From contig CADCAA010000006.1 of assembly GCA_902799285.1 (NCBI GenBank), positions 1 to 33,877 on the forward strand: 33,877 bases of DNA, written 5' to 3'. Made by a program: the position numbers and the translations under genes. Origin of the DNA: an uncultured Pseudomonadota bacterium (GTDB lineage Bacteria > Pseudomonadota > Alphaproteobacteria > Rs-D84). Below are positions 4,668 to 32,041 of this stretch, in pieces. The notes beneath the pieces are model-generated. The model was not told where the DNA came from, made no database searches, and was given only the letters and a program-made list of their open reading frames with translations. How positions within the stretch are numbered: the stretch's first letter is position 1; every line of letters begins with the position of its first letter.

Positions 4668-4668
4668 T

Positions 4669-6730: not shown

Positions 6731-6731
6731 A

Positions 6732-7917: not shown

Positions 7918-7918
7918 T

Positions 7919-9055: not shown

Positions 9056-9070
9056 TTTTTTCAAACCCGC

Positions 9071-9098: not shown

Positions 9099-9117
9099 GC
9101 CAGTATTCTATAAAAAA

Positions 9118-10492: not shown

Positions 10493-10503
10493 GTATATAT
10501 TCC

Positions 10504-10553: not shown

Positions 10554-10558
10554 AATAT

Positions 10559-10834: not shown

Positions 10835-10839
10835 TACAA

Positions 10840-11094
10840 ATGCATACAAAAGATGAAATTTTAGCACATATCAAAGAAATCTTGGTCAATGAATTTGATA
10901 TCGCGGCGGATAAATTGGTGCCAACTGCGCGTTTGGTCGAAGATCTGGATTTGGATTCTATTGATGCGGTCGATTTGGTCGTCAAATTGCAAAAGGTTAT
11001 AAATTGCAAAGTTGAACCGGATGATTTCAAACAAATTCGTACTTTACAAGATATGGTTGATGCCGTTGAAAAAATCGTTAATAAAAATAATTAA
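10840..11094 (+). CDS. apeF: Aryl polyene acyl carrier protein 2 (ApeF type)
   Basis: An 84-residue acidic ACP with the attachment site LDLDSIDAVDL (Ser40). It resembles the first ACP in layout but differs clearly in sequence, so it is not a recent duplicate; the two probably serve different steps such as starter loading and elongation. The end overlaps the start of the next membrane-protein gene. Confidence 0.92.
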   Translation: MHTKDEILAHIKEILVNEFDIAADKLVPTARLVEDLDLDSIDAVDLVVKLQKVINCKVEPDDFKQIRTLQDMVDAVEKIVNKNN

Positions 11095-13295: not shown

Positions 13296-13297
13296 AA

Positions 13298-14599
13298 ATG
13301 TTTCGACCTGTGGTTATTATACCTTGTTTTAATCATGCTGATGCGTTTGCAACTGTTGCGAAGCGTATATCTGCGTTCAAAACACCGGTGATTGTCGTTG
13401 ATGACGGCAGTACAACCCCGCAATCAAAAAAATTAAAACAGATTTGTGATGCGCACACTTTTATATACGTAAAACGCGAAAAAAATGGTGGCAAAGGCAC
13501 GGCTATGATTACCGGATTTCACAAAGCGACCGAGCACGGCTTTTCCCACGCCATACAAATTGATGCCGATGGTCAGCACAATACCGCCGATATTGCACGC
13601 TTCATAGCATTGGCAAAAAAATCACCGCACGCATTGATTATGGGACAACCGGTATACGATTCTTCGGCACCAAAGTCACGATTGATTGGGCGAAAAATTA
13701 CAAAATTTTGGGTCACAATTGAAACATTAAATCGCAATATGCCCGATACTATGTGCGGGTTTCGTGTATATCCAATAAACGAAACAAATAAAGTTTTATC
13801 ATCAATCCATTTCAAACGCATGGGGTTTGATATAGAAATTGTTGTTAAATTGTACCGCGCGGGCGTTAAAATTATTACCACGAACACAAATGTTATATAT
13901 CCTGAATCTGGGGTATCGCATTTTAATGTATGGCGCGATAATTTCTATATCAGTTTGATGCATACATATTTATGTTGTGGTTTGCCGATGTGGCTGGTAA
14001 AAAAGTGCGCTAAAAAAATCGCAAATTTATTTGTGATGATGTGTGTTTTTTGCGGTGTGGCAAATGCGAAAAGTATCACGGAAATGCCAGCGGCACTCAA
14101 AACATTTACGGATAATTTAGGGACCGTATCTGCAACATTTACGCAATCAAAAACCATACCGGAATCGGTAAAAATATTTCGTGCAAATGGCGTTGTTAAA
14201 TTTGCAAAGGGCATCGGATTCCGCTGGGTTCAGCAAAAGCCAAATTATTTTGAATTCACATCCACACTGGATTCATATTGCGTGAACGATGAAAAGCAAG
14301 CATTGGCCGCGTTGCCATATTTTTCACAAATTCAATCGATGATTGATGATGTGTTAAACGGCGATATGACAATGTTTTTAATGGCGTTTAATGCGGATTA
14401 TACTGAAAGCAAGGGTGGTCGTTGGACGCTGATGGCAACACCAAAGATTTCCACAATTGCCGAATTTTTATCGTCTATGACATTGGCTGGAAACACAACT
14501 GATTTGAATCAAATGGTGATTATGTATAAAAACGGTATGACGATTACCATTGATTTCAAACGGATGAAAACGGATTTACCAGATGAAATTAAATGTTAA
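13298..14599 (+). CDS. Fused GT2 glycosyltransferase and LolA-like periplasmic carrier domain
   Basis: A 433-residue protein joining two aryl polyene functions. Residues 1-230 are a GT2 glycosyltransferase (VVDDGS at 33-38, IDADGQH at 88-94), like the N-terminal half of ApeJ. Residues 258-433 resemble the LolA-like ApeL (FTQSKTIPESVKIFRANGVV, GFRWVQQKPNYFEF). Between them residues 231-257 (MWLVKKCAKK, then a hydrophobic core ending VANA) look exactly like a signal peptide with an AxA cleavage site. The chain could be a single-pass protein with a cytoplasmic transferase and periplasmic carrier, or be cut by signal peptidase into two. Met231 (13988) lacks a clear RBS. The gene begins two bases after the ligase fusion. 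Confidence 0.8.
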   Translation: MFRPVVIIPCFNHADAFATVAKRISAFKTPVIVVDDGSTTPQSKKLKQICDAHTFIYVKREKNGGKGTAMITGFHKATEHGFSHAIQIDADGQHNTADIARFIALAKKSPHALIMGQPVYDSSAPKSRLIGRKITKFWVTIETLNRNMPDTMCGFRVYPINETNKVLSSIHFKRMGFDIEIVVKLYRAGVKIITTNTNVIYPESGVSHFNVWRDNFYISLMHTYLCCGLPMWLVKKCAKKIANLFVMMCVFCGVANAKSITEMPAALKTFTDNLGTVSATFTQSKTIPESVKIFRANGVVKFAKGIGFRWVQQKPNYFEFTSTLDSYCVNDEKQALAALPYFSQIQSMIDDVLNGDMTMFLMAFNADYTESKGGRWTLMATPKISTIAEFLSSMTLAGNTTDLNQMVIMYKNGMTITIDFKRMKTDLPDEIKC

Positions 14600-16724: not shown

Positions 16725-17198
16725 AAGTGCGTTCGCATCAAATTTAGTCAATCGCGGCATATCAAAATGGCGTGTGGACGCAATGCAAATAACATAATCG
16801 CCATGACGCATAAATTGCCGACAATGCGCACAAGTGCCAAGTTTATATGTGGCCTCGGCAAAAGTAAATAAACGATAAAATTCTTTTTTATCCTTTGGAA
16901 TTGGCAAATGCATAAATTCGGCCGCAGCCGCAAAATCACGATCAACTGTCCCGTTTTCTATATCAATTCCGACCGGTGCATTGGATGCCGCCGCAACCAC
17001 AACCAGGTTATCTTTGTGTGCAATAGACGTGTGTTTTTTACCACTGTTTGCCGCCATTAAATGTCCCAAAATAAATTGCAATTTGCGGTTTTGATTTTGA
17101 AATTTTTTCACGCGCGCACGGTGCGTCGGCGACAACAGTGCCGTAAAGGCATCTGGATCCTTGCTTATTGAATCAATGTTTGCTATAAATACTTTCAT
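16704..17198 (-). CDS. 4'-phosphopantetheinyl transferase (Sfp/AcpT-like)
   Basis: A protein of about 164 residues that transfers phosphopantetheine from coenzyme A to the serine of acyl carrier proteins. VGIDIE and FTFAEATYKLG correspond to the two conserved motifs (GIDIE; W/FxxxEAxxK) that bind magnesium and CoA. It is short for the family. Its presence in the locus implies that it activates the two aryl polyene ACPs. It is the only minus-strand gene in the right part of the cluster; its 3' end overlaps that of apeM by 21 bases. The ATG at 17198 is preceded by a promoter rather than an RBS. Confidence 0.85.
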   Translation of the reverse strand: MKVFIANIDSISKDPDAFTALLSPTHRARVKKFQNQNRKLQFILGHLMAANSGKKHTSIAHKDNLVVVAAASNAPVGIDIENGTVDRDFAAAAEFMHLPIPKDKKEFYRLFTFAEATYKLGTCAHCRQFMRHGDYVICIASTRHFDMPRLTKFDANALLPTEQE

Positions 17199-17204
17199 AA
17201 TTCG

Positions 17205-17232
17205 ATTATAGATGAAATTTTTGTAAAGGCAA
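17205..17232 (-). promoter_or_regulatory. Promoter giving a probable leaderless mRNA (phosphopantetheinyl transferase)
   Basis: On the minus strand TTGCCT (17232-17227), 16 bases, TATAAT (17210-17205), then six bases to the ATG at 17198. The -35 coincides with the RBS of the divergent gene (AAAGG, 17225-17229). Confidence 0.65.
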
Positions 17233-17238
17233 GTCACT

Positions 17239-18138
17239 TTGAATACAGGCAATTGGTATCAACAACATGAACGTGGTGCTGGGAAATTCCGGCTGGGGGT
17301 TTTATTTTGGCTGTATAAAATATTTGGCATTCGATTTCTCAAGGTGTGTGTTTGGGCTGTATCGGGCTGTATCGGGCTTTGCGCAAAGCGGGCGCGCGGC
17401 TTTTCACGCGAATATCGGAAAATTTTGAACGTGTACCAGGTTGCACACAACGCACGGCCGACGCGATTTTCGGCACTGGGGCATATTCGTGCGTTCGCGT
17501 ATTCTTGCGTTGATAAAATGGTGGCAATGTGCGACGCGCGCAATCCGATAAAATTTGTTGTGGATAATAATGACGATTGGCGTGAACTGCAAAATCTGAT
17601 TCAAAATAAACATGGTGCGTTTTTGATTTGCAATCACGTCGGAAATATCGAGGCTTTGGCCGCATTCCCGGATGCGAACAATGTCAAAATGCACGCGTTT
17701 CAGCAAGTGCAACAAAACGGCATTTTTCATCAATTTATATCGTCGCATTCTGTGCGGAAAAACACAATTATTCATCCAGTCGAAGATTTGAATATCGGGA
17801 CCGCGGGCGAAATGTTTGATTATATAAACAATGGCGATTTGGTCATGATGGCCGGTGACAGGATTTCGGTCAAAAATCCGGGTAAAACTGTTGCGGTAAA
17901 AATATTGGGGCAAAAATGCGATTTACCGGCCGGTGTATTTCGGTTTGCGCGTTCTATGTCTTGCCCGGTTTTTGCGGTGGCATTGATAAACATTGGTCGT
18001 GAAAAGTACAAGTTATTTGTTCGGCGTTTGGATGAAAAAAACCTGGATAATATGGCGGCGGGTTTTGCGCAATTTACAGAACAGGCCGTTTTATCCGCGC
18101 CAATCCAATGGTTTAATTTTTATAAATTTTTCAAATAA
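17239..18138 (+). CDS. LpxL/HtrB-like lysophospholipid acyltransferase (second half of ApeJ, here a separate gene)
   Basis: A 299-residue acyltransferase of the LpxL/COG4261 type. The N-terminus WYQQHERGAGKF is the family signature, CNHVGNIEAL contains the HxxxxE catalytic pair, and MMAGDRISVKNPGK is the third conserved block. In E. coli-type aryl polyene loci this domain is fused behind the glycosyltransferase in ApeJ; here the glycosyltransferase is fused to a LolA domain and this part stands alone. TTG is the start, supported by AAAGG nine bases upstream. It probably acylates the sugar- or polyene-lipid at the inner membrane. Confidence 0.82.
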   Translation: MNTGNWYQQHERGAGKFRLGVLFWLYKIFGIRFLKVCVWAVSGCIGLCAKRARGFSREYRKILNVYQVAHNARPTRFSALGHIRAFAYSCVDKMVAMCDARNPIKFVVDNNDDWRELQNLIQNKHGAFLICNHVGNIEALAAFPDANNVKMHAFQQVQQNGIFHQFISSHSVRKNTIIHPVEDLNIGTAGEMFDYINNGDLVMMAGDRISVKNPGKTVAVKILGQKCDLPAGVFRFARSMSCPVFAVALINIGREKYKLFVRRLDEKNLDNMAAGFAQFTEQAVLSAPIQWFNFYKFFK

Positions 18139-18146
18139 AAAAAATT

Positions 18147-18878
18147 CTATTTGTGATATGTGTATTTGCATCTGGGGTAATTTGAGCACCCCAGAAAATC
18201 CCCAAAAGCGCCATGTCGCAACACCAATCGACCGCCGCAATTTGGACAAATCCGCGCAGCAATTTTTTTCTTTTTATCGTTTATGGCACGTTGCACGTCC
18301 AAGATATGTTCGCGGTTTGATACGGATTTATATTGCTTTATTTTTTGAATTTGGGCGGCGATTTTATTTGCCTGGGGCACAGATAATTTCACGTCACGAT
18401 AACATTTTATGCGGCCGGCAACTTGCGGCGTATACACCACCGGCACAGACATTTGCGGCAACATTAAACGACTGTTCATAGAAAATACTATTATCGGAAT
18501 AAATTTAGTCTTTGGAATCCCCAGTTTGTGTGCCAATGCATTTATATGCCCGCGATTTTGCGTGATTGGATTAAAAAAAGTGTAATTGCGCCCATGGTGG
18601 GTTTTGGTCCAATTTTCAGCGAATTCTGTTCCATTTATAAAACCCGATATGTTTTTAGTTTCTATGACGAATATACCATATTGAGACACAACAATATGAT
18701 CGATTTGGGTACTGCCCCGCCCCATTTTTATCATCACATCGTTAAACACGATATATTTATTACGCGGCAAAGTTTTCAAATGGCACGCAACAGTGCCTTC
18801 GCCAATATTAGTCTTCAACGGATTGCTGAACGCAAGCCACATCAAAAACACCACAGCAAAAACAATCGCTGTATACAT
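18147..18878 (-). CDS. NERD-domain protein with C-terminal topoisomerase-type zinc ribbon
   Basis: A 243-residue protein. Residues 3-17 are a membrane segment. Residues 25-150 are a NERD (nuclease-related) domain with [19 protein letters not shown], giving the Asp60 and Glu73-x-Lys75 pattern shared with restriction-type nucleases. Residues 213-240 form a zinc ribbon ([17 protein letters not shown]) like the C-terminal fingers of topoisomerase I. It may bind or cut nucleic acid at the membrane; the true function of NERD proteins is mostly unknown. A GGAGAG site precedes the ATG. It ends nine bases from the aryl polyene acyltransferase gene, convergent with it. Confidence 0.88.
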
Positions 18879-18937
18879 ACTCTCTCTCCGTTATGGGTAA
18901 TTATACCACAAAATATTCAAAAATGGTAATTTTACAT

Positions 18938-19338: not shown

Positions 19339-20799
19339 TTGGATACTATAATAAAACCGAAAGTATTTATATCGTATAGTTGGTCTGGTCAAGAATATGA
19401 AGAACGAATAAGAAAAATTGTCGACATGCTGAGAGAACATGGTATTGATACGGTGTACGACAAATACGATTTAACTCATGGTGCAAGTATATATACATTT
19501 ATGGAACAGTCTGTTAATGATCCAACAATAACAAAAGTTCTTATATTTTGCGATAAACAGTATAAAGAAAAGGCGAACGCGAAAAAAGGTGGCGCAGGAA
19601 CAGAAACTTTAATAATTTCGCCCAATGTATACGAAGATGCAAATTCTGTTGGAAAAGACAAGAAATTTATCCCGATAGTTATGGAAAAAGATGAAACAGG
19701 TAAAGCATGCTTGCCAACTTATCTGAACGGACTACTTTTTATAGATTTTTCCAGGAGCCAATCTGAAAATTCCGAAGAGTTTATAAAATTAGTGCGACTT
19801 TTATATGGAAAACCAGAATTTGTTGCACCAGCGCTTGGGAATATGCCGTCATATCTAGATGAAACGAAGCCACATTATATGATAACAGGTTTAAAGAAAG
19901 ATTGTGCTATAAATGCTTTAAAAAATGGTTTGTCTGGTGCTTTGAACTTATGTGAAGATTTTTTTAATCAGGTTTATGATTTTTTGGATAAATTAATAAT
20001 TGAATACGATCCTAACCAGACGAAAGTAGTCGATTGCGTGTGGAACAGCATTGAAGAGTTATTACCCCTGCGAAATGATTGTTTGGATGTTGTTGAAACA
20101 ATGATAGTTTGCAATAAAACGGAAGAAACTATTCGCTCTATTCATACGTTTTTTGAGAAGATACTTGGATATAAAAATAAAGTAAATACCAAAAATAGGT
20201 TTTGGAATTTTCAAGCAGATCACTTTAAATTTTTTGGATACGAAATATTCATGAACTTCACGACATTTTTAGTGGACAAAAGGTATTTTGAACAATTAAA
20301 AATTTTTTTGGATGATTATTATTGTAAATTTGACATCGAAACCCCAAAGTTAAGGAATTTTACAATCTTTGATTCCGATATGTATTCGTTTGATATTAAA
20401 AATAGAACGCTCAACCCGCAACGAATTTCACTAAAAGCAGACCTTTTAAAGAAAAGATGGCGTGGAAGAACAGAGGAATTTGAAAAATTAATGCAAACAG
20501 ATCTTTTGTTGTATTTATGTGCGTTAAATATGCAAACCCTGGATAAAACAGATATGTATACACGGTGGTATCCTGTTTCATTGGTGTATGCAAATCCTGG
20601 AGAGTATGCATTTGAATTATTTTTACGTGCAACTAGTCGTAACTTTTTTAATCAAACATTGGGCAAATTAGGCCTGACGTTGGATGGTTTAAAGAACATG
20701 AAGCAAGATCTAGATAGACTACGTGGACACTATAATGGACTTGGTTGGATTGATCCACAAGCTTTAATTAATTTGGATAAATTGGCCACTAAAGACTAA
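19339..20799 (+). CDS. SEFIR/TIR-like domain protein, candidate antiphage defence effector
   Basis: A 486-residue protein. Residues 5-160 carry a SEFIR (TIR-related) domain: KVFISYSWSGQEYEERI, then HGIDTVYDKYDLTHGASIY and MEQSVNDPTITKVLIF, with Glu56 a candidate catalytic acid. Bacterial TIR and SEFIR proteins are often NAD-consuming or signalling effectors of defence systems. The 320-residue C-terminal part (helix-rich, ending GHYNGLGWIDP) is not recognised and may be the sensor or oligomerisation region. TTG is the start, with AGGAG seven bases upstream. It is AT-rich, sits after tRNA-Ser and next to a broken recombinase, and has its own terminator at 20824-20858. No partner gene is evident. 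Confidence 0.75.
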   Translation: MDTIIKPKVFISYSWSGQEYEERIRKIVDMLREHGIDTVYDKYDLTHGASIYTFMEQSVNDPTITKVLIFCDKQYKEKANAKKGGAGTETLIISPNVYEDANSVGKDKKFIPIVMEKDETGKACLPTYLNGLLFIDFSRSQSENSEEFIKLVRLLYGKPEFVAPALGNMPSYLDETKPHYMITGLKKDCAINALKNGLSGALNLCEDFFNQVYDFLDKLIIEYDPNQTKVVDCVWNSIEELLPLRNDCLDVVETMIVCNKTEETIRSIHTFFEKILGYKNKVNTKNRFWNFQADHFKFFGYEIFMNFTTFLVDKRYFEQLKIFLDDYYCKFDIETPKLRNFTIFDSDMYSFDIKNRTLNPQRISLKADLLKKRWRGRTEEFEKLMQTDLLLYLCALNMQTLDKTDMYTRWYPVSLVYANPGEYAFELFLRATSRNFFNQTLGKLGLTLDGLKNMKQDLDRLRGHYNGLGWIDPQALINLDKLATKD

Positions 20800-20998: not shown

Positions 20999-21436
20999 TT
21001 AACGCACCACGATGTGTTTATGTGTGTTTGCTATATGCAAAATTTCTGATCTTATTTTATTACATTCTGAATCGGGGATAGAACCGTATGCTGCCCCTTG
21101 GTCTGGGTAATATATTAAACTAAAAAAATCTGGTTGATCGTGTCCATAATTGGAGCTTTTATCAAGTCTAATTTCATAATTCAAATCACTGTGTATCTGC
21201 TGTCCTAATGGTGCATAAATACGCATAATTTCTGGCCAATATTTCTTATGAACTGACCATATTCCACCATAAGAAATAATACGTGAACCAGCTTTGTAAA
21301 TACTGTGCAAATTTTGTGTATAGTCAACCTCATAAAGCAAATCTTTATCGTTTTGTAATGTTTTATGTGTCAAATTTATTAATTGAACAAGATATTTGTT
21401 AGGGATATCTATTGGGTATATTATTTCTTTAGTCAT
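20999..21436 (-). CDS. Hypothetical protein, 145 residues, lying between two recombinase fragments
   Basis: I recognise no family. The protein is soluble, rich in tyrosine, isoleucine and aspartate, with no signal or membrane segment (MTKEIIYPIDIPNKYLVQLI at the start; HDQPDFFSLIYYPDQG in the middle). AAGG lies about nine bases before the ATG. It stands exactly between the N-terminal and C-terminal remnants of the serine recombinase on the same strand, so it probably arrived by replacement of the missing centre. Its neighbour is the SEFIR gene in opposite orientation, so it could be an accessory of that system or unrelated cargo. Confidence 0.55.
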   Translation of the reverse strand: MTKEIIYPIDIPNKYLVQLINLTHKTLQNDKDLLYEVDYTQNLHSIYKAGSRIISYGGIWSVHKKYWPEIMRIYAPLGQQIHSDLNYEIRLDKSSNYGHDQPDFFSLIYYPDQGAAYGSIPDSECNKIRSEILHIANTHKHIVVR

Positions 21437-21530
21437 TATAAAACCTTAACTGTTCCAACGAGAATACTACAAATTTCTGTAATATCAAGTTATTTCAATT
21501 TTTGTATATTTAGGTATTGGAAAGTTTGCA

Positions 21531-21905
21531 TCAGAATTTCTCCCCGCCATAAATATAATCAAATGACTGGGTAATAGAAACGAAATTGGCATTATATTTT
21601 TCAAAATATTTCATCATATTATGGAAATCCAGAATTGAACGTGATAATCGGTCAACCTTATACACAACCACAGTATTAACCAAGCCATGCGCCATATCAT
21701 CCAGCATTTGTTTTAGTGCAGGCCGTTCCATCGTTCCGCCTGAAATCGCCGCATCACTGTATGTTTTATAATATTGCCACCCATTAAACGATTGAGATGC
21801 AATATAGGCCTTGCACGATTCTTCTTGGTTCTGCAAAGAATTAAATTCCTGTTCAAGTCCATGTTCAGTTGATTTACGCGTATAAATAGCACATCTAATT
21901 GTCAT
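21531..21905 (-). pseudogene. N-terminal fragment of a serine recombinase (resolvase/invertase catalytic domain)
   Basis: A 124-residue frame with the catalytic domain only: CAIYTRKSTEHGLEQEFNSL contains the nucleophilic serine, followed by YSDAAISGGTMERPALKQML and VYKVDRLSRS. It stops shortly after SITQSFD, whereas intact relatives of this type are several hundred residues longer and carry a recombinase and a zinc-ribbon DNA-binding region. The C-terminal piece is found at 20810-20995. The two pieces are best explained by an internal deletion and replacement, so recombinase activity is unlikely. The start overlaps the DUF2924 gene by 11 bases. Confidence 0.85.
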
Positions 21906-22224
21906 GTTTGTACCTTTTGTTTATACCAAAGAAGAAGTTGCCAGACATTTTCATGCCAGCTATCTTGGTTGCTACCGCCGATAAAGTTGAATATTTATCG
22001 CCATTATAAGAAAAACTGCCGTCGTCGTTGACTAAGATGGCGTATTTTATACCTTTGAAATATCTTGTTAAAATGGTGCCAGGAACAAAGTTATACTTAT
22101 TTGGGCACGCATGATCTAAACACTGTTCTGGGTTATCCTTGTATTTTCGAATTTTTACTAGATATTTATGTTCAATTCGAAGATTTAACCTGTCGCATTG
22201 AATATAATACCAAAGCGATCGCAT
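21895..22224 (-). CDS. DUF2924-like protein, partner of serine recombinases
   Basis: A 109-residue protein. The C-terminal part reads PGTILTRYFKGIKYAILVND, then FSYNGDKYSTLSAVATKIAG and FFFGI, the pattern of DUF2924 proteins found directly upstream of serine recombinases in alphaproteobacterial phages and elements. Its molecular role is unknown; a recombination directionality or DNA-binding role has been assumed from position. The ATG overlaps the region just after the stop of the small gene upstream (TAAATG), and the 3' end overlaps the recombinase fragment, so the three form one transcription unit. Confidence 0.75.
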   Translation of the reverse strand: MRSLWYYIQCDRLNLRIEHKYLVKIRKYKDNPEQCLDHACPNKYNFVPGTILTRYFKGIKYAILVNDDGSFSYNGDKYSTLSAVATKIAGMKMSGNFFFGINKRYKHDN

Positions 22225-22401: not shown

Positions 22402-24075
22402 TTAAAAGACAATATATTTTTTATATATTTTTGCCCATTTTAATAGGACATAAAGCCCCCATATAGCTGTATAATCAGAATATTGCTTTAATGGTTTGTT
22501 TATCAAATTTAATAATTCGGGTTGAGAAACATCAAATAAATCACACAAAGATTTGTTGTTAAATGTGCGCATTATATCTTTATGCAAATATCCATCAATC
22601 CAATCAACCCAAGGTGCTGTAAAAGGTTGTTTTTTACGATTTAGTATATTTGCAGGCAATATATTACTAAATGTTTTAGCCAGTTGCTGTTTTGGTGGGT
22701 TTGTGTAAATTTTCCTTAAAGAGTGCCCTGATAAATAATTAATAATTTCCTGGGACAAATAAGGAACGCGGCCCTCAACTGAATTTGCCATTGTCATTTT
22801 ATCTAACCTGAACAAATGATAATCGGGCAATCTATATTTCCTTTCAAAATCTGCAATAGTCTGCAAAGGATTATCTGATGTTTTTATCAAATTTAAATTT
22901 TTTGGTTTACGATTAAATAATCTTTTCTGCGTATCCCGTGGCAGCCAAGATATTTGCTGTTTATATGTTTGTAATTCAGAACCAACATTATTCATTGCGG
23001 TGCGTATATAGTTATATCCAATGAACATTTCATCGGCACCATCACCACTGATTATACCTTTTACATATTTTTTTGCAGATTTTGCTAGCAAATATGTACT
23101 AAGTGCGACCGTTGAATACAATGGTTCTTCAAGTGCCAAAATAGTTTTATCAAAATTATTTTTTATTATTTGTTTATTGGCATTGACTATGTGATGTATT
23201 AAATTATTTTTATGGGCAACACTTGCAGCGAAATCTGTTTCGTTAATCACTCTGTTGATATCGTATTTAATTGTAAAAACGTGTTTTTTATCTCCGAACA
23301 ACGAGCATAAAATACTTGAATCTAATCCCCCACTTAAAAAAGCACCAATTTTAACTTCTGAACTATCATAATTAGCGATACTTTTGCCCCATTTTGACAA
23401 AGTTTTTGCGGGGGAACAAATAATTTTATAATTATATTTTTTTACACCTTTTGCTGTTATTTCTAATATTTGGCACGGTCCAAATTTAAATATATCTTCA
23501 AATATAGTTAAAGGATGTGCAACAAAACGGTATTGTAAAAAACTGGATAAGCCTTTTGCGGAAATCCTATGTTTTTTAGTTATACTTAGAATAGCTTTTA
23601 ATTCAGAAGAAAACACAAAATTCCCATTTGATAAAATGGAATAATATATGGGTTTTATTCCGAATTTATCAGAAAACAACAACAATCTATCTTTATCCAT
23701 AATAGCAATTGAAAACATACCATCCAAATACTTTACGAAATCTTTACCGTATTTTTCATACATGGGAATTATGATATCTGCATCATTATATTTTTTACCT
23801 GATACAGTATTTAATTCCAATTTTTTTCGTAAATCTAGATGATTGTATATTTCGCCATTAAATACACAGAAAATATCATTTTTTGTATTAGCGTGTACAT
23901 GTGTTGGTGTTTTTATGGAATTCATAGATAAACGCACCAAACCCAAAGATACAAAATCATTATGTTTATATGCCCATCCATCAGGACCACGATGCTTCAT
24001 AGTGCGCAACATGCGTTTCACAAGTCGCTTATTATCACATTTTGTTGTATCAAAGATCCCAGCAATTCCACACAT
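22402..24075 (-). CDS. Asparagine synthase-type glutamine amidotransferase
   Basis: A 557-residue AsnB-like enzyme. MCGIAGIF gives the N-terminal nucleophile Cys2 of the glutaminase domain (about 1-200; HRGPDG at 28-33, FNGEIYNH at 72-79). Residues 248-254 (SGGLDSS) form the ATP-pyrophosphatase loop of the synthetase domain, and SGDGADEMFIGY follows. It should transfer ammonia from glutamine to a carboxylate. In a glycan or small-molecule cluster the likely substrate is a sugar acid or a biosynthetic intermediate, not free aspartate; this is inferred from position. It is the last gene of the minus operon, and its ATG overlaps the preceding stop (TAATG). Confidence 0.88.
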   Translation of the reverse strand: MCGIAGIFDTTKCDNKRLVKRMLRTMKHRGPDGWAYKHNDFVSLGLVRLSMNSIKTPTHVHANTKNDIFCVFNGEIYNHLDLRKKLELNTVSGKKYNDADIIIPMYEKYGKDFVKYLDGMFSIAIMDKDRLLLFSDKFGIKPIYYSILSNGNFVFSSELKAILSITKKHRISAKGLSSFLQYRFVAHPLTIFEDIFKFGPCQILEITAKGVKKYNYKIICSPAKTLSKWGKSIANYDSSEVKIGAFLSGGLDSSILCSLFGDKKHVFTIKYDINRVINETDFAASVAHKNNLIHHIVNANKQIIKNNFDKTILALEEPLYSTVALSTYLLAKSAKKYVKGIISGDGADEMFIGYNYIRTAMNNVGSELQTYKQQISWLPRDTQKRLFNRKPKNLNLIKTSDNPLQTIADFERKYRLPDYHLFRLDKMTMANSVEGRVPYLSQEIINYLSGHSLRKIYTNPPKQQLAKTFSNILPANILNRKKQPFTAPWVDWIDGYLHKDIMRTFNNKSLCDLFDVSQPELLNLINKPLKQYSDYTAIWGLYVLLKWAKIYKKYIVF

Positions 24076-25271
24076 TATTTATTGACCAATTTGTTAAATT
24101 CACAGCATAGTTTTTCAGCTATTTTTTCCGGGGAATATTTATGTGCTGATACAAAACATTGTTCTGACATTTGTTTTACAAAGGCATCGTTCGTTTGCAA
24201 TTTAGAAATGATTTTATTTAATTGTCTTTCGTTTTTATACAATAAAGATTGCGGAATGAACTCTGGAAAAGCGGCCATGTTTGGTGCAATAACTGGTATA
24301 CCCATCCCCATACAATCCATACAAGCCATAGACCAAACGCATGCTTTACGCAAGGGTGCAAAACAAGCAAACCCAGAATTCAATATTGATTTATATTCTG
24401 CCCTGGTTTTATTGTTTTGTGCTATGCTCATGCCCGGCATTTTTGACATAATTTTTACAAAATCTGCGGGGGTATTATTTTGTGACGCCCGCTTTTGGCT
24501 ACGTTTTTGCATAGGATCAAGAACAACACATTGTATGTCAAACTGTTTGTGTAAACCTGCAAAAATATTGATAAAATCTTGTGTCCCATACGTTTTGTAC
24601 AAACGATGGTTGTATATATAGTTTTTTCTGTTTTTTAGTGTTGTGATATATCTGTTCTTTTTATCCAGAAACAATGGATCAGATGGCGGCGCTATCACAA
24701 TAAATTTTTTAGAATCATATGGAACTTTGTAATATTTTGCTGCTTTAACTATGAGTGATTTAGCAAATTCGCTTTGTATAATAAATAAATCAGCTGTCTG
24801 TAATGCGGTCAATATATCAAAAACAATTTTATTGCCTAAATTCCTAGCATTAAGACTCTGGTCTATTTCTGGGGTTCGTGATTTCATATTATTTGCCCAC
24901 AATGCCGGATAATGACAATATGTGACGATTGGTATATCCAATTTATTCCATACTAATACACTGCGAATTGCAGAGGTTAGTTCAACCTGGGTATTGAATA
25001 TTATGTCTGGTTTTGTCCTCTTTATCAACTTAGCAAATTCTTCAGAATTAAAGTCAAAACGAGAAGAGAATTTATTTGTTCCCAGATTTATATATTCTTT
25101 TTTGCATTTTAACTCCTTTGCTTTCTTGAATTCTAGGCAATTGGCGCCAGCGACAACATATTTATGACCCATATTTTCAAACTGGCTGGATAATATAGAT
25201 TGAAAGATATATCCAGAATCACAGCTAATATTATCTTTGTTAGATATATTCAATATAGATAAGATTTTCAT
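24075..25271 (-). CDS. Glycosyltransferase, GT-B fold (GT4-like)
   Basis: A 398-residue protein with two Rossmann halves. The N-terminus MKILSILNISNKD, TKPDIIFNTQVEL and IPIVTYCHYPALW are typical of acceptor domains. The C-terminal half holds the donor site, with SMACMDCMGMGIPVIAPNMA corresponding to the family's E-x7-E region, although the first acidic residue is replaced. It probably transfers a sugar from a nucleotide sugar. Overlaps by four bases with the gene before it and by one with the amidotransferase, so translation is coupled. The altered region means that donor preference cannot be guessed. Confidence 0.78.
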   Translation of the reverse strand: MKILSILNISNKDNISCDSGYIFQSILSSQFENMGHKYVVAGANCLEFKKAKELKCKKEYINLGTNKFSSRFDFNSEEFAKLIKRTKPDIIFNTQVELTSAIRSVLVWNKLDIPIVTYCHYPALWANNMKSRTPEIDQSLNARNLGNKIVFDILTALQTADLFIIQSEFAKSLIVKAAKYYKVPYDSKKFIVIAPPSDPLFLDKKNRYITTLKNRKNYIYNHRLYKTYGTQDFINIFAGLHKQFDIQCVVLDPMQKRSQKRASQNNTPADFVKIMSKMPGMSIAQNNKTRAEYKSILNSGFACFAPLRKACVWSMACMDCMGMGIPVIAPNMAAFPEFIPQSLLYKNERQLNKIISKLQTNDAFVKQMSEQCFVSAHKYSPEKIAEKLCCEFNKLVNK

Positions 25272-26578
25272 TTTAATACTCTTGCCCCCAATTTTATTAA
25301 CTTTTCGATAAAACCATCGTACCCACGTGTTAAGTGTTCTATATTTGTTATTTTAACTGTTTTGCCAGATTTTATTGCGGCAATACACAAAACTGCAGTG
25401 GCACGGGTATCTGTTGCATTTAGAATTACATTAGTTCGTAACCTGTTGTGTTCATAAGGTTTGATAATAATTTTATTTGAATACTTTTTAATAGAATAAC
25501 CCAATTTATTTAATTCGGGGACATACGCAAAACGTGAACGCCATACTGTTTCTTTAATAACAGATTCTCCGTTTGCAAACGATAACAGCAATGCAATAAA
25601 AGGTTGGTGATCGCTTTGGATACCTTTATGCGTTATTGTAATATTTGTGCCAGATAACTGTCTTTGCTTTGGAACAATAATTTTATTATTCCCTAAGATA
25701 AGATTTACACCTATTTTTTGTAATATTTTCAATTCTGGGTATAATATATTTTGTAAAACATCTAAATTCTTAACCAGGATGGTCAATTTTATATCATTTA
25801 CAATGGCCAAAGTGATAAAAGTCATTACTTCACTCTGACAATCTGATAAAGTATAAACAATATTGTCTGAGATATTTTTATTTTCTGTGTTGATTACCAA
25901 TCTGTTATCTGTTCGTTTTATGTCAATTCCACATAATTTTGCAAAATTTAACAAATCGTGAACATCGGTTCTGAAATAATAGTTTTTTATTATGGTCTTT
26001 GTATTTTCTGTTCCAATTGCAGCCAATATGCATAGTTTTGTTGCACTGCTAACCTTTTCGCCTGTCAGACGGAACATACTGTCCGAAAAACGCATAATAT
26101 TTTGAACAACATTTGTTTTTTTACATGGTTTCCATGAATATTCTGTTTTGTTCAACTTATTCGTAACACCAAAGGTATTCAAAATGTCTACCAGGTGATT
26201 ATATGGCCGCATGCCTTGGGCGCTTATATTACATCCACCTGTTGGCACAACAGAAAACTTGTGGAATCTTATCGCTAAAGCAAAAATAAAATACAAAGCC
26301 CCATGAATTTTATTACATAAATTCTCATCAATTCGCTTATATTTCATGGACTTAGTATCAATATATACGGTGTTGTTTTTAAAAACGGCTTTGCCGCCAA
26401 ACTTAACTATCAGTTTGCATAATATATCCGTATCATCTGTTTTGGGTACGTTGTGTATAGTGCATTTTGTATTGAAAATTATTGTGGCTGCAACTAATTG
26501 AACAAAAGAATGTTTGTGACCTAAAACCTTTATCGTTTTATCAGATTTTAATTTTGATGGTTTTATAACTATGTTCAC
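25268..26578 (-). CDS. Divergent MurA-like enolpyruvyl transferase
   Basis: A 436-residue member of the EPSP synthase/MurA family, normally the enzyme that adds enolpyruvate to UDP-GlcNAc. Conserved points: Lys22 in GHKHSF (but His replaces the usual Asn23), Cys116 in PTGGC matching the catalytic Cys115, Arg124 in GMRPYNH, Asp323 in SDHQPF, and Arg392 in TDTRAT, with LTRGYDGF near the end. The active site is thus nearly complete but the sequence is far from a housekeeping MurA and the gene is AT-rich and in an accessory operon. Related paralogues act on nucleotides in nikkomycin-type pathways (NikO/PolA). Substrate is unknown. Confidence 0.82.
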   Translation of the reverse strand: MNIVIKPSKLKSDKTIKVLGHKHSFVQLVAATIIFNTKCTIHNVPKTDDTDILCKLIVKFGGKAVFKNNTVYIDTKSMKYKRIDENLCNKIHGALYFIFALAIRFHKFSVVPTGGCNISAQGMRPYNHLVDILNTFGVTNKLNKTEYSWKPCKKTNVVQNIMRFSDSMFRLTGEKVSSATKLCILAAIGTENTKTIIKNYYFRTDVHDLLNFAKLCGIDIKRTDNRLVINTENKNISDNIVYTLSDCQSEVMTFITLAIVNDIKLTILVKNLDVLQNILYPELKILQKIGVNLILGNNKIIVPKQRQLSGTNITITHKGIQSDHQPFIALLLSFANGESVIKETVWRSRFAYVPELNKLGYSIKKYSNKIIIKPYEHNRLRTNVILNATDTRATAVLCIAAIKSGKTVKITNIEHLTRGYDGFIEKLIKLGARVLK

Positions 26579-26582
26579 AATA

Positions 26583-27176
26583 TTACCTTTGTTTAATCAT
26601 ATGGTTATCTACACATTCTAATAAACTGTTTGCCGTTGGTATCAACAAATCGCGTGCGATAGCAATATGTTCTTTGTTTTGAAGCAAACTTATAAAAACA
26701 GCATCATGCCCACAACTGATGGCATCTTGAATATTAAAAATGCTGTCATCTATTACAATACCCTTTGGCAATTTCTTGTATTGGGTTAATTTATTTGCCC
26801 ACCCCAATGGTAATAATATAATATCATCAAATACGTCACCAAATACGTTTTGTAAATTTTGCAATCTGTTATTTCTGGCAACTGAATTTGTAGATATCGA
26901 ACTTATTACAGATAATGATGCCCCAGTATTTTTTAATTTTTGAATTGCTGTTTTTGCACCCGAAACCGCAGGTACTTCCTCAAAATAATGCGTTTGTGTA
27001 AATAATTCTGTTGATTTATTAAAATCCAGTCCCGAATTTGCCGGAAAAACCCAATGGCTGGGGTATGTGTTTTTATCAACGATTATATTATATTCTTGTT
27101 GTAAAAACAGCGCGTGAGTCTGGGCGGTTTGTAATAAAACCTCGTCACAGTCCAAATAAACATTGCACCAGTTCAT
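26583..27176 (-). CDS. HAD-superfamily phosphatase, 5'-nucleotidase (NT5C)-like
   Basis: A 197-residue HAD protein. YLDCDEVLLQT carries the nucleophile and acid Asp9 and Asp11. SVISSISTN is the second motif (Ser/Thr), and GIVIDDSIFNIQDA holds the Asp pair of the last motif. The general layout resembles small 5'-deoxynucleotidases. It should remove phosphate from a sugar phosphate or nucleotide. It is the first gene of the minus operon, four bases before the enolpyruvyl transferase gene. A TTGACT element lies upstream but its -10 is poor, so the promoter is not assigned. Confidence 0.75.
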   Translation of the reverse strand: MNWCNVYLDCDEVLLQTAQTHALFLQQEYNIIVDKNTYPSHWVFPANSGLDFNKSTELFTQTHYFEEVPAVSGAKTAIQKLKNTGASLSVISSISTNSVARNNRLQNLQNVFGDVFDDIILLPLGWANKLTQYKKLPKGIVIDDSIFNIQDAISCGHDAVFISLLQNKEHIAIARDLLIPTANSLLECVDNHMIKQR

Positions 27177-27218
27177 ACTAAAATGGTAAACCCTATATTC
27201 ATAAAGTCAAATAATTTG

Positions 27219-27247
27219 TTGATTTTCTGGTGTTTTTTACTTAAAAT
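27219..27247 (+). promoter_or_regulatory. Promoter giving a probable leaderless mRNA (plus operon of the accessory cluster)
   Basis: TTGATT (27219-27224), 17 bases, TAAAAT (27242-27247), then seven bases to the ATG at 27255; no RBS is visible. Confidence 0.65.
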
Positions 27248-27254
27248 TTCCATC

Positions 27255-28211
27255 ATGGATATAAAAACTCAACGCCAAATTGAAAAAATACTGGGGTCAG
27301 CAATCGTTTCACAAGAACGAATTGGTGGGTTTTCTGCGGAAAATTATATAGTAAAAACAAAAGACAACCATAAATTTGTGGCGAAAATTTTACGAAACAA
27401 CGCTAATGATTATGTTAATCAGATAGAAAAGGTAAGTCGCCTGTTCAACAACAAAAGTGGTAAATTTTTTACAAAACCAATCCAAGAAGATGTTAAGCAC
27501 AAAATTATTATATCTAAATTTATAAAAGGCGACGTATTACATGGGGATGATATAAAAGAATGTTTTTATGAACCCATCGCAAAAGTTTTAAAACATTATG
27601 AACGTATAAAAACAGATGATAGCCTGAAAAACAGTTTTGATTTATATTTCAATATAAAAGCAAGTCAGCATAAAATTGATGATATAAAAGGAAAACTGAA
27701 AAAGACAGATTCATATTATGAACTGGTTAAGAATATATTGGAATTAAAAACTTCTATATTGAATAAATATAAGAAAAATGATGATTTGGTTAACTGGATA
27801 AAAAATTCTAATTCTTTTGTCCATGGCGATTTTCATAATGAAAACATATTATTTTCTAAATCTAGCGTAAAGGCAATATTAGATTTTGAGCTGTCTCACA
27901 AAGGGAATTCTGCGGAAGATATGGTAAACTTTGTTTGGTTCGCATTTTTAAATAATGATTTGTCAGATAAATCGTTATCAAGAGCACATGATTTCTTGAA
28001 AACGTGTGAAAATGTAGCAAAAGTTTCTAAAACAGATTTAGAAAACGCTTTTAAACTAACGTTTTTACGCTTTGTACAATCATCTGTTCTTGAAAAATCT
28101 TTAATTGAATACAAAGAATCTTTTTATGAAGGTCTGCTTAAACGAGATTTGAGAAAGTTTAAAGAAATTGATAATAATATGAAACCCATATTAAAGAAAT
28201 TACTGGCATAA
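27255..28211 (+). CDS. Aminoglycoside-phosphotransferase-family kinase
   Basis: A 318-residue kinase of the APH/choline kinase fold. An N-lobe with IGGFSAENYIVKTKDNHKFV (nucleotide-binding strands) and KFVAKIL (lysine) is followed by the catalytic loop FVHGDFHNENILF and the metal-binding ILDFELSHKGN. It should phosphorylate a hydroxyl of a small molecule such as a sugar, choline, or antibiotic. The ATG at 27255 is chosen over an upstream start because the promoter lies between. It is the first gene of the plus operon and overlaps the next by one base (TAATG). Resistance kinase and biosynthetic sugar kinase both remain possible. Confidence 0.8.
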   Translation: MDIKTQRQIEKILGSAIVSQERIGGFSAENYIVKTKDNHKFVAKILRNNANDYVNQIEKVSRLFNNKSGKFFTKPIQEDVKHKIIISKFIKGDVLHGDDIKECFYEPIAKVLKHYERIKTDDSLKNSFDLYFNIKASQHKIDDIKGKLKKTDSYYELVKNILELKTSILNKYKKNDDLVNWIKNSNSFVHGDFHNENILFSKSSVKAILDFELSHKGNSAEDMVNFVWFAFLNNDLSDKSLSRAHDFLKTCENVAKVSKTDLENAFKLTFLRFVQSSVLEKSLIEYKESFYEGLLKRDLRKFKEIDNNMKPILKKLLA

Positions 28212-29047
28212 TGAAACCAAAGATATCAGTTGTCGTTTTAACCCACAATTCTTATACAGAAAAATCTGGGTCGGTGGAATTTGTTATTAATTCTTATCTT
28301 AATCAAAAGACATTGCCCTTTGAAATAATAGTGGTAGATAACACTTCGAATAATGGTGATTCAAAACAACTGGAAACGTTTTGTTCAAACAAGCCATTTA
28401 TAAAAATTATAAAGGCATGTACCACAATAGGCGGTGCAAGAAATATGGGTGTAAAACATGCATCTGGTACCCATATAATTTTTAATGATGATGATACCAT
28501 TCCATTAGGAAACAGTATATTAGACCAGATTTCAGCATATTGCACGAAAGGTTCTTATGGGTATGGCGCAAATAGATTATGGAGTCCTGATATAAATTGG
28601 GTAAAATCTCATGTTTCTGATATAACTACGGAATTAGAAAGTAAAAACTGGGACTATTTGCGTGAATTTTCTCTAAATCCATCTCAAGACATAAGGCATA
28701 AAAACGACATCTCTGTAAAAATGCTTACAAGGTCTTTTATAGGAAATTTCGGTTTTATATCTGTTAAAGATTTTATTGCTGTTGGTGGTTTTCCGGAATA
28801 TCCTGGATACGGATGCGAGGACGACGCTTTCGCCTTTTTGTGTTATTTGAAACTTGGTAAACCTGTTATATTAAGCAACGAAATCTCGGTGTTGCATATT
28901 TCCCACCCAATTAATAACTCAAATTTACAACAGTTAGAAAATAACAAGATTTTATTACAAAAATTATTTGAACAACACAACTGTAAACATTTTCATATAA
29001 GCAGAGTGTTATTCCCTTCCGACAAACCGATTATCGATTGTAAATAG
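28211..29047 (+). CDS. Glycosyltransferase family 2
   Basis: A 278-residue GT-A fold enzyme. ISVVVLTHNSYTEKS, IIVVDNTSNNGDS and IGGARNMGVKHASG are the donor-binding N-terminal strands. FNDDDT (about 95-100) is the metal-binding DxD region. GGFPEYPGYGCEDDAF is the acceptor/catalytic part, with ED as general base. It transfers one sugar in glycan or glycoconjugate assembly. Start codon overlaps the kinase stop. After it comes a 56-base gap with a new promoter. Confidence 0.88.
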   Translation: MKPKISVVVLTHNSYTEKSGSVEFVINSYLNQKTLPFEIIVVDNTSNNGDSKQLETFCSNKPFIKIIKACTTIGGARNMGVKHASGTHIIFNDDDTIPLGNSILDQISAYCTKGSYGYGANRLWSPDINWVKSHVSDITTELESKNWDYLREFSLNPSQDIRHKNDISVKMLTRSFIGNFGFISVKDFIAVGGFPEYPGYGCEDDAFAFLCYLKLGKPVILSNEISVLHISHPINNSNLQQLENNKILLQKLFEQHNCKHFHISRVLFPSDKPIIDCK

Positions 29048-29056
29048 CGAAAATTA

Positions 29057-29084
29057 TTGACATTGGCTATATTTGTTCTATTTT
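29057..29084 (+). promoter_or_regulatory. Promoter of the ABC-F gene
   Basis: TTGACA (29057-29062), 16 bases, TATTTT (29079-29084). AAAAGG lies before the ATG at 29104. The ABC-F gene can thus be expressed apart from the kinase and GT2. Confidence 0.6.
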
Positions 29085-29103
29085 TATACAAAAGGCTTAA
29101 AAT

Positions 29104-30528
29104 ATGTCACACAAACCTATAACTATAACTAATTTATCTTTAGATTTTCCTCACAAAGTGTGTTTTGAAGGATTTAACACACAAATATTACCTGGTGACA
29201 GAATTGGAATTATTGGTCGTAACGGAAGTGGTAAATCGTCATTGGTCAAAATGTTAATGGGCGAAATGGACCCTTCGGGTGGCCGTATCAGTGGTATTGA
29301 CAATTTGGTTGTCGGATACGTTCCACAAACTGTTTTGGAACACAGCGAATTAAGTGGTGGCGAAAGATTTAATAAGGCATTTACAGAAGCCATTGCTACA
29401 CAACCAGATTTGCTTATTCTGGACGAACCGACAAATCATTTGGATCAAAATGTAAAATATTCTTTGTTACGTAAATTAGATAATTACCAAGGGACTTTGA
29501 TAATTGTTAGCCATGATTTGGATGTTTTAACAAATACAGTTGACAAATTGTGGCACATCAAAGATGGCAAGATAACAGTGTTTTCTGGCGATTATAACGA
29601 TTATATGTATGAAAATGGTCTGGCATTGGCATCTCAACAAAAAATGCTGAGCGATTTGAAAAAAGAAAAGAAAAAACTAAAGATACAGCGTCAACAAGAA
29701 TCTCAAAAAGCCGGCAAAGCAGGTAAAAAGAAAGCCAAAGACAATGATAAATTGGGATTTGATGCAAAATCAGACAATGCACAAGCCAAGGCAGATGCAA
29801 AAATCGCTAAATTAAACGAACGCCTTGGGAATGTACAAAGTTCTTTGCAGCAAAATCGTTTGCCAGAAGAATATAAATTGAAATTCAATATTGACAATGC
29901 CTATGTTCAATCTGGTGCTAATTTGGTATCGGTCTCTTTTGGCGAATGCTCTTATGGAGCACATATAGTTTTATCAGATGTATTCTTCTCTATGGCACCA
30001 ATGGATAAAGTTTCTATAAGTGGTAACAATGCTTCTGGTAAAACAACTTTTATCAAGGCAATAATGCAAAATAAATCAATAAACGTTTCTGGTGATTGGG
30101 TTTTACCAAAGCCATCAGATATTGGATATTTAGAACAACATTACACCAATTTAAATCCAGATGATACAGTAGAGGAAGTTATACGTGAACGTGCACCATC
30201 AATGGACGCAAAGGCAATTCGTAAACACTTAAATGATTTCCTGTTTCGTAAAAATGAAGAAGTGTTTGCAAAAGTAAAAACGTTATCTGGTGGTGAAAAA
30301 GCTAGATTATCATTAGCGCAAATTGCGGCTAGACCACCTAAGCTTTTGATATTGGATGAAATTACAAATAATATTGATTTGGAAACAAAAGAATACATTA
30401 TTTCTGTGCTGAATGCTTATGCAGGTGCATTTATAATAGTATCACACGAAAGTGGCTTTTTAGACAGACTGAATTTGACCAACAGATATTTTATACAAAA
30501 CGGGACATTAAAACAAAAATTTAGATAA
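29104..30528 (+). CDS. ABC-F ATPase, antibiotic-resistance-like type
   Basis: A 474-residue soluble protein with two ATP-binding domains and no membrane segment. Domain 1: GRNGSGKS (38-45), LSGGE (83-87), LILDEPTNHLD. Domain 2: GNNASGKT, LSGGEKARLSL, LILDEITNNID. The lysine-rich linker between them (about 185-260) is the arm that enters the ribosome in ABC-F proteins. Only eight residues separate the Q-loop glutamine (75) from the first signature; housekeeping EttA-like proteins have far more, and the Vga/Msr resistance proteins are similarly short. I infer ribosome protection. Its stop overlaps the next start (TAATG), tying it to the glycosyltransferase. Confidence 0.85.
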   Translation: MSHKPITITNLSLDFPHKVCFEGFNTQILPGDRIGIIGRNGSGKSSLVKMLMGEMDPSGGRISGIDNLVVGYVPQTVLEHSELSGGERFNKAFTEAIATQPDLLILDEPTNHLDQNVKYSLLRKLDNYQGTLIIVSHDLDVLTNTVDKLWHIKDGKITVFSGDYNDYMYENGLALASQQKMLSDLKKEKKKLKIQRQQESQKAGKAGKKKAKDNDKLGFDAKSDNAQAKADAKIAKLNERLGNVQSSLQQNRLPEEYKLKFNIDNAYVQSGANLVSVSFGECSYGAHIVLSDVFFSMAPMDKVSISGNNASGKTTFIKAIMQNKSINVSGDWVLPKPSDIGYLEQHYTNLNPDDTVEEVIRERAPSMDAKAIRKHLNDFLFRKNEEVFAKVKTLSGGEKARLSLAQIAARPPKLLILDEITNNIDLETKEYIISVLNAYAGAFIIVSHESGFLDRLNLTNRYFIQNGTLKQKFR

Positions 30529-31361
30529 TGAATTATAAGAATTATTTGTCTGCGACATGTATAATAAAAAACGAGGCAGAATATATGCCAGAATGGTTGG
30601 AGTACTATTTGCTTGTCGGGTTCGAAAAATTTTATGTATATGATAACGAAAGTACAGATAATATAAAACAAATACTGCGTCCCTATATAGATTCAGGTAT
30701 TGTTGAATATACATATTGGTCAGGAACAGCTATGCAGATGCCTGCATATCACGACTGTGTTGAAAAACATAAAAATGATACTTTTTGGTTGGCAGTCATA
30801 GATATAGACGAATTTATAGTCGCAGATTCTGGGAATGTTGCAACATGTTTGCAACCTTTTGAAAAATATGCTGCTGTTGTTCTACAATGGTTGGTTTATG
30901 GCGATAACAATATCGTAAAAAAAGAACCTGGATTGGTCATGGAACGTTTTACCGCACATAATCTTTTTGATACAAAAACAGAAATGTGCAAAAGCATAGT
31001 AAATCCACGAAAGATAGAGGTAAAAACTTTACATCTGCCGACTCCTATTAATGGATATTATGCCGTTAATGCAATTGGCGAACAAATAATACCTGTATCA
31101 AATGCCAGAATTCAAAATGGTACTTATAAAAATCTGCATATAAACCATTACATATTTAAGTCGTATGAAGAATTTATGATAAAAAAGACAAAAGGCGATG
31201 CACTTAGTTCAAAGACCCCAAGGTTCAAAAACGATGAAAAATCTTGGCAACTGGCATATACAGAATACAACCATAACGAAATACAAAATGATACAATGAT
31301 GGAAAAATATGTTCCTTTGGTCTATAATGCAATTCGAAAAAGATATCAAACAAAGAGATAG
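30528..31361 (+). CDS. Glycosyltransferase family 92-like protein
   Basis: A 277-residue protein with the GT92 (DUF23) hallmarks: ATCIIKNEAEYMPEWLEYYL at the N-terminus, then GFEKFYVYDNESTD, and AVIDIDEFIV, the DxD metal-binding motif. HINHYIFKSYEEFMIKK near the C-terminus is also typical. GT92 enzymes transfer galactose or related sugars. It is translationally coupled to the ABC-F gene and followed two bases later by the acyltransferase. Confidence 0.85.
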   Translation: MNYKNYLSATCIIKNEAEYMPEWLEYYLLVGFEKFYVYDNESTDNIKQILRPYIDSGIVEYTYWSGTAMQMPAYHDCVEKHKNDTFWLAVIDIDEFIVADSGNVATCLQPFEKYAAVVLQWLVYGDNNIVKKEPGLVMERFTAHNLFDTKTEMCKSIVNPRKIEVKTLHLPTPINGYYAVNAIGEQIIPVSNARIQNGTYKNLHINHYIFKSYEEFMIKKTKGDALSSKTPRFKNDEKSWQLAYTEYNHNEIQNDTMMEKYVPLVYNAIRKRYQTKR

Positions 31362-31363
31362 AT

Positions 31364-32041
31364 ATGAAAAACGTTCGTCAAACCTTATTCAAAAAATATA
31401 CAATTATCGGAAAGAATAATCGTATTATCATCAAAGACGGCAAGAAAGATATTGTCTTAACAAAGTATAAAAGAATTTCTGGTTTGGATATCGAAATCAA
31501 TGGTTCTGACAACACCATAACTTTGACTCCAGAAACTTTATTTAAATCATCAAAAATAATCATTGAAGCAAATAATGCGAATCTTACATTTGGAACCAGT
31601 CCAGAAATAAATAATTTATCTGTATTTGTTCGTTTAGGAAACAATCAACGTCTGATATGGGGGAACGGCAGTACCATTACAGGTGGTTATATTGAATTAT
31701 GCGAAACAAATGCATCAGTCAAAATAGGACACGATTGTATGATTGGTTGGCATGTTAGTATGGTTGCAACAGATTTTCATGCAGTCATTGATAAAAAAAC
31801 AAAAAAAGTATTAAATGGTCCAGGGGATATAATTATTGGTGACAACTGCTGGCTTGGACATGGGGTAAGATTACTAAAAAATGCTAAGATACCAAATAAT
31901 ACGATTGTTGGTGCTGAAAGTGTTGTGACAAAGAAATTTACCGAAACATATACTGTAATTGGTGGTAATCCAGCCAAAATTGTTAAGAAAAATGTTTGTT
32001 GGGACAGAAAATCTCCAACAGACCTAAAAGAAAAGCGTTAA
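31364..32041 (+). CDS. Left-handed beta-helix acyltransferase (hexapeptide repeat)
   Basis: A 225-residue protein. After an N-terminal part of irregular strands, residues 110-215 show hexapeptide-repeat spacing: VKIGHDCMIGWHVSMVATDF, then GDIIIGDNCWLGHGVRLLKN and NTIVGAESVVTKKF, ending VIGGNPAKIVKKN. This is the LbH O- or N-acetyltransferase family that modifies sugars (WbbJ/maltose acetyltransferase type). Likely donor is acetyl-CoA. It is the last gene of the plus operon and probably decorates the glycan or sugar made by the cluster. Confidence 0.87.
   Translation: MKNVRQTLFKKYTIIGKNNRIIIKDGKKDIVLTKYKRISGLDIEINGSDNTITLTPETLFKSSKIIIEANNANLTFGTSPEINNLSVFVRLGNNQRLIWGNGSTITGGYIELCETNASVKIGHDCMIGWHVSMVATDFHAVIDKKTKKVLNGPGDIIIGDNCWLGHGVRLLKNAKIPNNTIVGAESVVTKKFTETYTVIGGNPAKIVKKNVCWDRKSPTDLKEKR

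Follow-up and report, generated by a model that had tools for sequence, protein, structure and literature searches.

The enolpyruvyl transferases NikO and PolA of the nikkomycin and polyoxin pathways convert phosphoenolpyruvate (PEP) and uridine 5'-monophosphate (UMP) to 3'-enolpyruvyl-UMP (3'-EUMP), an established reaction (PMC5365060; PMC6801904), and 3'-EUMP is dephosphorylated by PolJ in the polyoxin pathway (PMC5365060). In both pathways, the enolpyruvyl nucleotide is carried on to octosyl acid via a radical S-adenosylmethionine (SAM) enzyme. A different nucleoside antibiotic cluster, that of A201A in Streptomyces capreolus, includes the ABC-F protein Ard1, which provides self-resistance specific to nucleoside antibiotics (PMC10201436). 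Here, we analyzed a 33,877-nt stretch (hereafter the window; coordinates are window positions) of contig CADCAA010000006.1 from an uncultured alphaproteobacterium of Rs-D84, whose members have reduced genomes and live in the guts of farm animals (PMC12306168). An island of nine genes at 22402-32041 is, at a probability that we put at roughly 0.7, a horizontally mobile cluster that makes a glycosylated, enolpyruvyl-nucleotide-type nucleoside antibiotic. No published description of the combination of a NikO-type enzyme, a GT4 glycosyltransferase, an AsnB amidotransferase, an APH kinase and an ABC-F ATPase was found in the literature searched.

A first-pass annotation of the window had described four genes at 22402-27176, for a HAD-like protein, a divergent MurA, a glycosyltransferase and an AsnB protein, and had likened the second to NikO and PolA on account of retained catalytic Lys, Cys and Arg residues and a substrate-side Asn changed to His. 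All four open reading frames (ORFs) were confirmed at these positions, on the minus strand. The MurA-like protein (25268-26578) matches EPSP_synthase (PF00275) at E 3.6e-37, and its score of 200 bits with the MurA model TIGR01072 is far under the cut-off of 392.7 bits. Among solved structures, its best match by sequence is NikO of Streptomyces tendae (4fqd, 163 bits), ahead of the best MurA (118 bits), and its identity to NikO and PolA is about 28-30%. NikO also tops the fold search with the AlphaFold model (pLDDT 87; E 5e-40, TM-score 0.88). In a maximum-likelihood tree of 47 proteins including MurA, AroA, NikO, the orthologues of the window protein and Arad_12092 of Rhizobium rhizogenes K84, a NikO clade (support 99/96), recovered in 100% of 200 bootstrap trees, holds the window protein and its orthologues, Arad_12092, one Mesorhizobium protein, four actinobacterial proteins and NikO. 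Arad_12092 is sister to the window group (100/97), while MurA and AroA are separate.

The active site agrees with this placement. The catalytic residues K22, C115, R120, D305, R331, D369 and R397 of Escherichia coli MurA are kept as K22, C116, R124, D323, R349, D390 and R418, as the first-pass annotation had noticed for the first three. On the acceptor side, the NikO-like proteins differ from MurA by N23H, R91H, A92G, E188K/R, T304S and F328W, and the window protein has the corresponding clade markers H23, H92, G93, R203, S322 and W346. The Asn-to-His change at the N23 position is thus a marker of the NikO clade, and the window enzyme shares with NikO and PolA the Lys-His-Ser, Ile-His-Gly and Trp acceptor-side markers besides the fold and the catalytic Lys, Cys, Arg and Asp. 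With MurA it has the fold and the catalytic residues in common, but not the acceptor-site residues or the tree position. Judged by sequence, the "divergent MurA" is a member of the NikO clade and not a MurA, and the earlier analogy with NikO and PolA is borne out. Matches to the protein in a phage collection were set aside, as the annotated ones are MurA and, among the matches listed, all are 24-29% identical.

Since the protein is the only PF00275 member in its genome (labelled G000 and estimated to be 94% complete), with no other MurA or AroA, it might be taken for a housekeeping MurA that diverged as the genome shrank but continues to initiate peptidoglycan synthesis. The genus does retain late enzymes of that pathway, namely transpeptidase-domain (penicillin-binding) proteins in 59/59 genomes (e.g. 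G000:C3:28231-29220) and MraY over the cut-off in 26/29 (e.g. G000:C5:31786-32802). However, in addition to the tree position outside MurA and the NikO-type acceptor site, the gene sits in a sporadic island of low guanine-plus-cytosine (GC) content, most of the 58 other genus genomes are without any MurA homologue, MurB is found in none of the 59, and Mur ligases occur in only 3 of 78 genus genomes, G000 not among them. Because the genus lacks MurB and nearly always the Mur ligases, the NikO-like enzyme, going by these gene inventories, cannot serve peptidoglycan synthesis, and a housekeeping MurA is a very improbable explanation. The first-pass annotation had called the enzyme accessory, a misleading term, as the genome has no housekeeping MurA for it to accompany, though the enzyme is not a housekeeping protein itself; the same annotation had regarded clustering inside MurA, in a genome with no other murA, as speaking against its proposal, and the genome indeed has no other murA, yet the tree places the protein in the NikO clade. 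The idea that the genus has no peptidoglycan, drawn from the missing Mur ligases, was withdrawn in view of the transpeptidases and MraY. The genus keeps late peptidoglycan steps but not the cytoplasmic route to the precursor, as though UDP-MurNAc-pentapeptide came from outside. Genomes G010 and G038 encode another strongly divergent MurA-family protein (L033:9207-10514 and L034:9899-11203; about 245 bits), which groups in the tree with divergent MurA of other families of the order and not with NikO.

The best plasmid match of both the NikO-like protein and the GT4 glycosyltransferase is the 388-kb plasmid pAtK84c (CP000631) of R. rhizogenes K84, and the best matches that five window genes have on this plasmid all lie at 64.8-74.1 kb. 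The identities are 30% for NikO (1e-67), 42.5% for GT4 (1e-107), 31% for AsnB (1e-96), 31.6% for the APH kinase (1e-19) and 29% for ABC-F (2e-39). The order NikO-GT4-AsnB is the same as in the window, and an APH kinase, an ABC-F protein and a HAD phosphatase are found within about 10 kb (Table 1). The pAtK84c locus differs in having all genes on one strand, whereas the window set is divergent, and in having no adjoining GT2 or acetyltransferase gene; a GT92 homologue lies about 7 kb off, past transposases. By comparison, the NikO loci of Streptomyces and Amycolatopsis gave no GT4 or AsnB matches. Relatives of GT4 on a Streptomyces plasmid (28%) were not counted as the same cluster, as a peptide deformylase gene adjoins and NikO is missing.

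K84 is a crown-gall biocontrol strain, and its agrocin 434 has been known as a biocontrol antibiotic since 1993. According to a review, nopaline is assigned to the K84 plasmid pAtK84b, agrocin 84 to pAgK84, and agrocin 434 with its resistance to a third plasmid, named pAtK84a (PMC4231840). Since pAtK84c is the remaining sequenced plasmid and no second nucleoside-type cluster appears in its surveyed annotation (all but 50.0-53.4 and 380-388 kb), the locus described here is, by elimination, probably the candidate agrocin 434 locus. No description of agrocin 434 biosynthetic genes was found in the open literature. pAtK84c also carries an indigoidine synthase gene, Arad_12458, with a phosphopantetheinyl transferase gene nearby (L150:17810-21862, CP000631). 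On Mesorhizobium plasmids (L044:7645-14120 and L045:7644-14120), an apparently interrupted NikO-like gene, whose product deviates at some clade-marker and catalytic positions, adjoins genes for a TruD-like pseudouridine synthase, a radical SAM protein, a 2-oxoglutarate-Fe(II) oxygenase, a methyltransferase and a phosphatase, a set that is a candidate C-nucleoside (malayamycin/ezomycin-like) cluster.

Within the genus, the island occurs in four species including that of the window. L046, where GT92 is fragmented, and L048 (genome G042) have all or nearly all of it, and in G108 it is split over two contigs (L047 and L158). The ratio of non-synonymous to synonymous substitution rates (dN/dS) falls in the range 0.03-0.25 in nearly all orthologue pairs of the nine genes, indicating purifying selection; a HAD pair of low divergence reaches 0.31, and pairs with the fragmented GT92 are unreliable. 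The gene set is not a chance assemblage, since further species of this genus have retained it under purifying selection and part of it is found again on pAtK84c, there with an unrelated HAD gene beside NikO-GT4-AsnB. The GT4 family is rare: of 183 genomes from the bacterial family, the 6 that have it all belong to this genus, and no GT4 beyond that of the window's own genome was found among 385 class-level and 398 phylum-level genomes, or in viral contigs. ABC-F proteins of at least 96% identity are confined, in the genus, to cluster-bearing genomes. The lgt gene adjoins the island in the window and in L046, and the neighbours differ in L048. The island is a functional, sporadically distributed unit. 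A second version of GT4 (57%) and AsnB (43%) is present in G006 and G048 (L156:1-2842 and L157:1-2842), where AsnB starts MYGITGI and has lost the glutaminase Cys2; both contigs begin 26 bp ahead of GT4, and neither genome yielded a NikO-like or APH gene.

The unit is wider than first described. The four minus-strand genes, which are spaced by 4 bp or overlap by 1-4 bp in the pattern of a single transcription unit, were recognized correctly in the first-pass annotation, but a second, divergent operon extending to 32041 was missed (Table 1). Promoter-like matches in the gap between the two operons are no more frequent than in shuffled sequence. The island has a GC content of 32%; window bases 1-18900 have 40%, and lgt, which lies past the island, has 43%. 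At the left edge (19339-20799 and 20999-22224) lie a gene with a SEFIR/TIR domain and an N-terminal piece of a serine recombinase with DUF2924; in L158, the cluster is flanked by sequences related to the recombinase and to TIR, and L157 has the recombinase as well.

Table 1 Genes of the window island and of the related locus on pAtK84c.
Feature	Location	Strand	Characteristics
HAD-like phosphatase	26583..27176	-	197 amino acids; DxD at 9-11, DD at 143-144; weak family matches
NikO-type enolpyruvyl transferase	25268..26578	-	436 amino acids, GTG start; PF00275, tree, residues, fold
GT4-type glycosyltransferase	24075..25271	-	398 amino acids; 42.5% identity to K84 Arad_12094
AsnB-type glutamine-dependent amidotransferase	22402..24075	-	557 amino acids; intact Cys2, SGGLDSS loop
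Divergent intergenic region separating both operons	27177..27254		78-bp gap
APH-family kinase	27255..28211	+	HGDxHxxN and DFE motifs; ORF readable from 27183
GT2-family glycosyltransferase	28211..29047	+	family match
ABC-F ATPase, antibiotic-resistance type	29104..30528	+	ribosomal-protection model best, 355 bits; cut-off 380
GT92-family glycosyltransferase-like protein	30528..31361	+	family match
Hexapeptide-repeat acetyltransferase	31364..32041	+	family match
Arad_12088, APH kinase	pAtK84c, within 64.4-74.1 kb		
Arad_12091, MATE exporter	pAtK84c, within 64.4-74.1 kb		
Arad_12092, NikO	pAtK84c, within 64.4-74.1 kb		
Arad_12094, GT4	pAtK84c, within 64.4-74.1 kb		
Arad_12096, AsnB	pAtK84c, within 64.4-74.1 kb		
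Arad_12097, Cof-type HAD	pAtK84c, within 64.4-74.1 kb		
Arad_12098, ABC-F	pAtK84c, within 64.4-74.1 kb		

The divergent operon carries an APH kinase and an ABC-F ATPase, which points to an antibiotic with self-resistance. The ABC-F protein matches the ribosomal-protection model best, ahead of Uup (229 bits) and EttA (209 bits), and the K84 counterpart also has this model as its best match (344 bits), both scores being slightly under the cut-off of 380. The A201A cluster is comparable in coupling nucleoside antibiotic genes with an ABC-F protein, and it also has an APH-type phosphotransferase, Ard2. To our knowledge, it has no NikO-type enzyme, and its sugar chemistry is unlike that of the window cluster. 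The conservation of the kinase and ABC-F beside the biosynthetic core in two distant hosts suggests that they confer self-resistance and that the ribosome is the target.

In the proposed pathway, the NikO-like enzyme would likely use PEP to place an enolpyruvyl group on the 3'-OH of a pyrimidine nucleotide, either UMP or cytidine 5'-monophosphate, and the HAD protein may remove the 5'-phosphate in the manner of PolJ. The HAD protein conserves the DxD and DD motifs, and its family call is weak (HAD_2, E 0.002, below the cut-off; PHROG "HAD-superfamily hydrolase", E 2.7e-4); its AlphaFold model (pLDDT 42) was too poor and was not used. AsnB, which has Asn_synthase and GATase_7 domains, is expected to form an amide because the glutaminase Cys2 and the ATP-binding loop are intact, and the enolpyruvyl carboxylate would be its simplest target. 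GT4 (Glyco_transf_4, 5e-7), helped by GT2, GT92 and the acetyltransferase, would decorate the product. The APH kinase would phosphorylate the drug and so protect the producer, and the ABC-F ATPase would clear the drug from the producer's ribosome. Unlike the nikkomycin and polyoxin clusters, the window cluster has partner genes for GT4, AsnB, APH and ABC-F and no radical SAM gene of the NikJ/PolH type among the ORFs of 22402-32041, nor other octosyl-acid genes.

Glycan loci often contain GT4, GT2, GT92, hexapeptide acetyltransferases and AsnB amidotransferases, and the island might instead build an enolpyruvyl or lactyl sugar nucleotide into a surface polysaccharide (lipopolysaccharide or capsule) by means of its three glycosyltransferases, AsnB and acetyltransferase. 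We consider this unlikely, as the acceptor site is of the NikO and not the MurA type, glycan assembly offers no obvious task for an APH-family kinase together with an ABC-F ATPase, the island lacks flippase and polymerase genes, and neither GT2 nor an acetyltransferase adjoins the K84 counterpart. Of the products envisaged in the first-pass annotation, an enolpyruvyl- or lactyl-sugar or a nucleoside-like metabolite, the NikO-type evidence thus favours the nucleoside and not the sugar. Less probable still is a nucleoside- or nucleotide-derived metabolite other than an antibiotic, such as a signal, with ABC-F and APH as mere neighbours. This would accord with the 64% identical ABC-F relatives in G034 and G027 that adjoin other genes, but APH and ABC-F accompany NikO-GT4-AsnB both in the gut genus and in K84, itself a known agrocin producer. 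In G034 and G027 (L141:7102-10735 and L142:10045-13627), the neighbours of these relatives are a PHP-domain phosphatase and a SPASM-like radical-SAM protein, and the group may form a further small biosynthetic unit.

Several points weigh against the nucleoside antibiotic cluster proposed here. With the radical SAM enzyme missing, an octosyl acid is an unlikely product; a surface glycan could also account for GT2, GT92 and the acetyltransferase, and the product and its activity are predicted from gene content. The window cluster has no exporter gene, whereas the K84 locus has the MATE gene, and the window ABC-F is just under the curated cut-off. The pAtK84c HAD is of the Cof (IIB) type and the window HAD of another subclass, the pair not being alignable; the phosphatase step would thus recur in the two loci without homology. 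The agrocin 434 link is made by elimination, so its locus remains a candidate; two stretches of pAtK84c lie outside the annotation survey, and the plasmid is called pAtK84a, not pAtK84c, in the review (PMC4231840). The link also draws on agrocin 434 being a disubstituted cytidine nucleoside.

In summary, the island may, as a tentative proposal that we hold at somewhat less than even odds, represent an unrecognized class of nucleoside antibiotic, in which a 3'-O-enolpyruvyl pyrimidine nucleotide is amidated and glycosylated instead of being cyclized by a radical SAM enzyme, and which acts on the ribosome and is made by K84 (as agrocin 434) as well as by partner-dependent gut bacteria with genomes below 1 Mb. 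If so, candidate genes for agrocin 434 would be at hand, and NikO chemistry would feed a second pathway that does not lead to octosyl acid, with self-resistance genes suggesting the ribosome as target. It would also mean that an antibiotic cluster is retained and exchanged by bacteria whose genomes are sub-megabase in size and largely stripped of biosynthesis.

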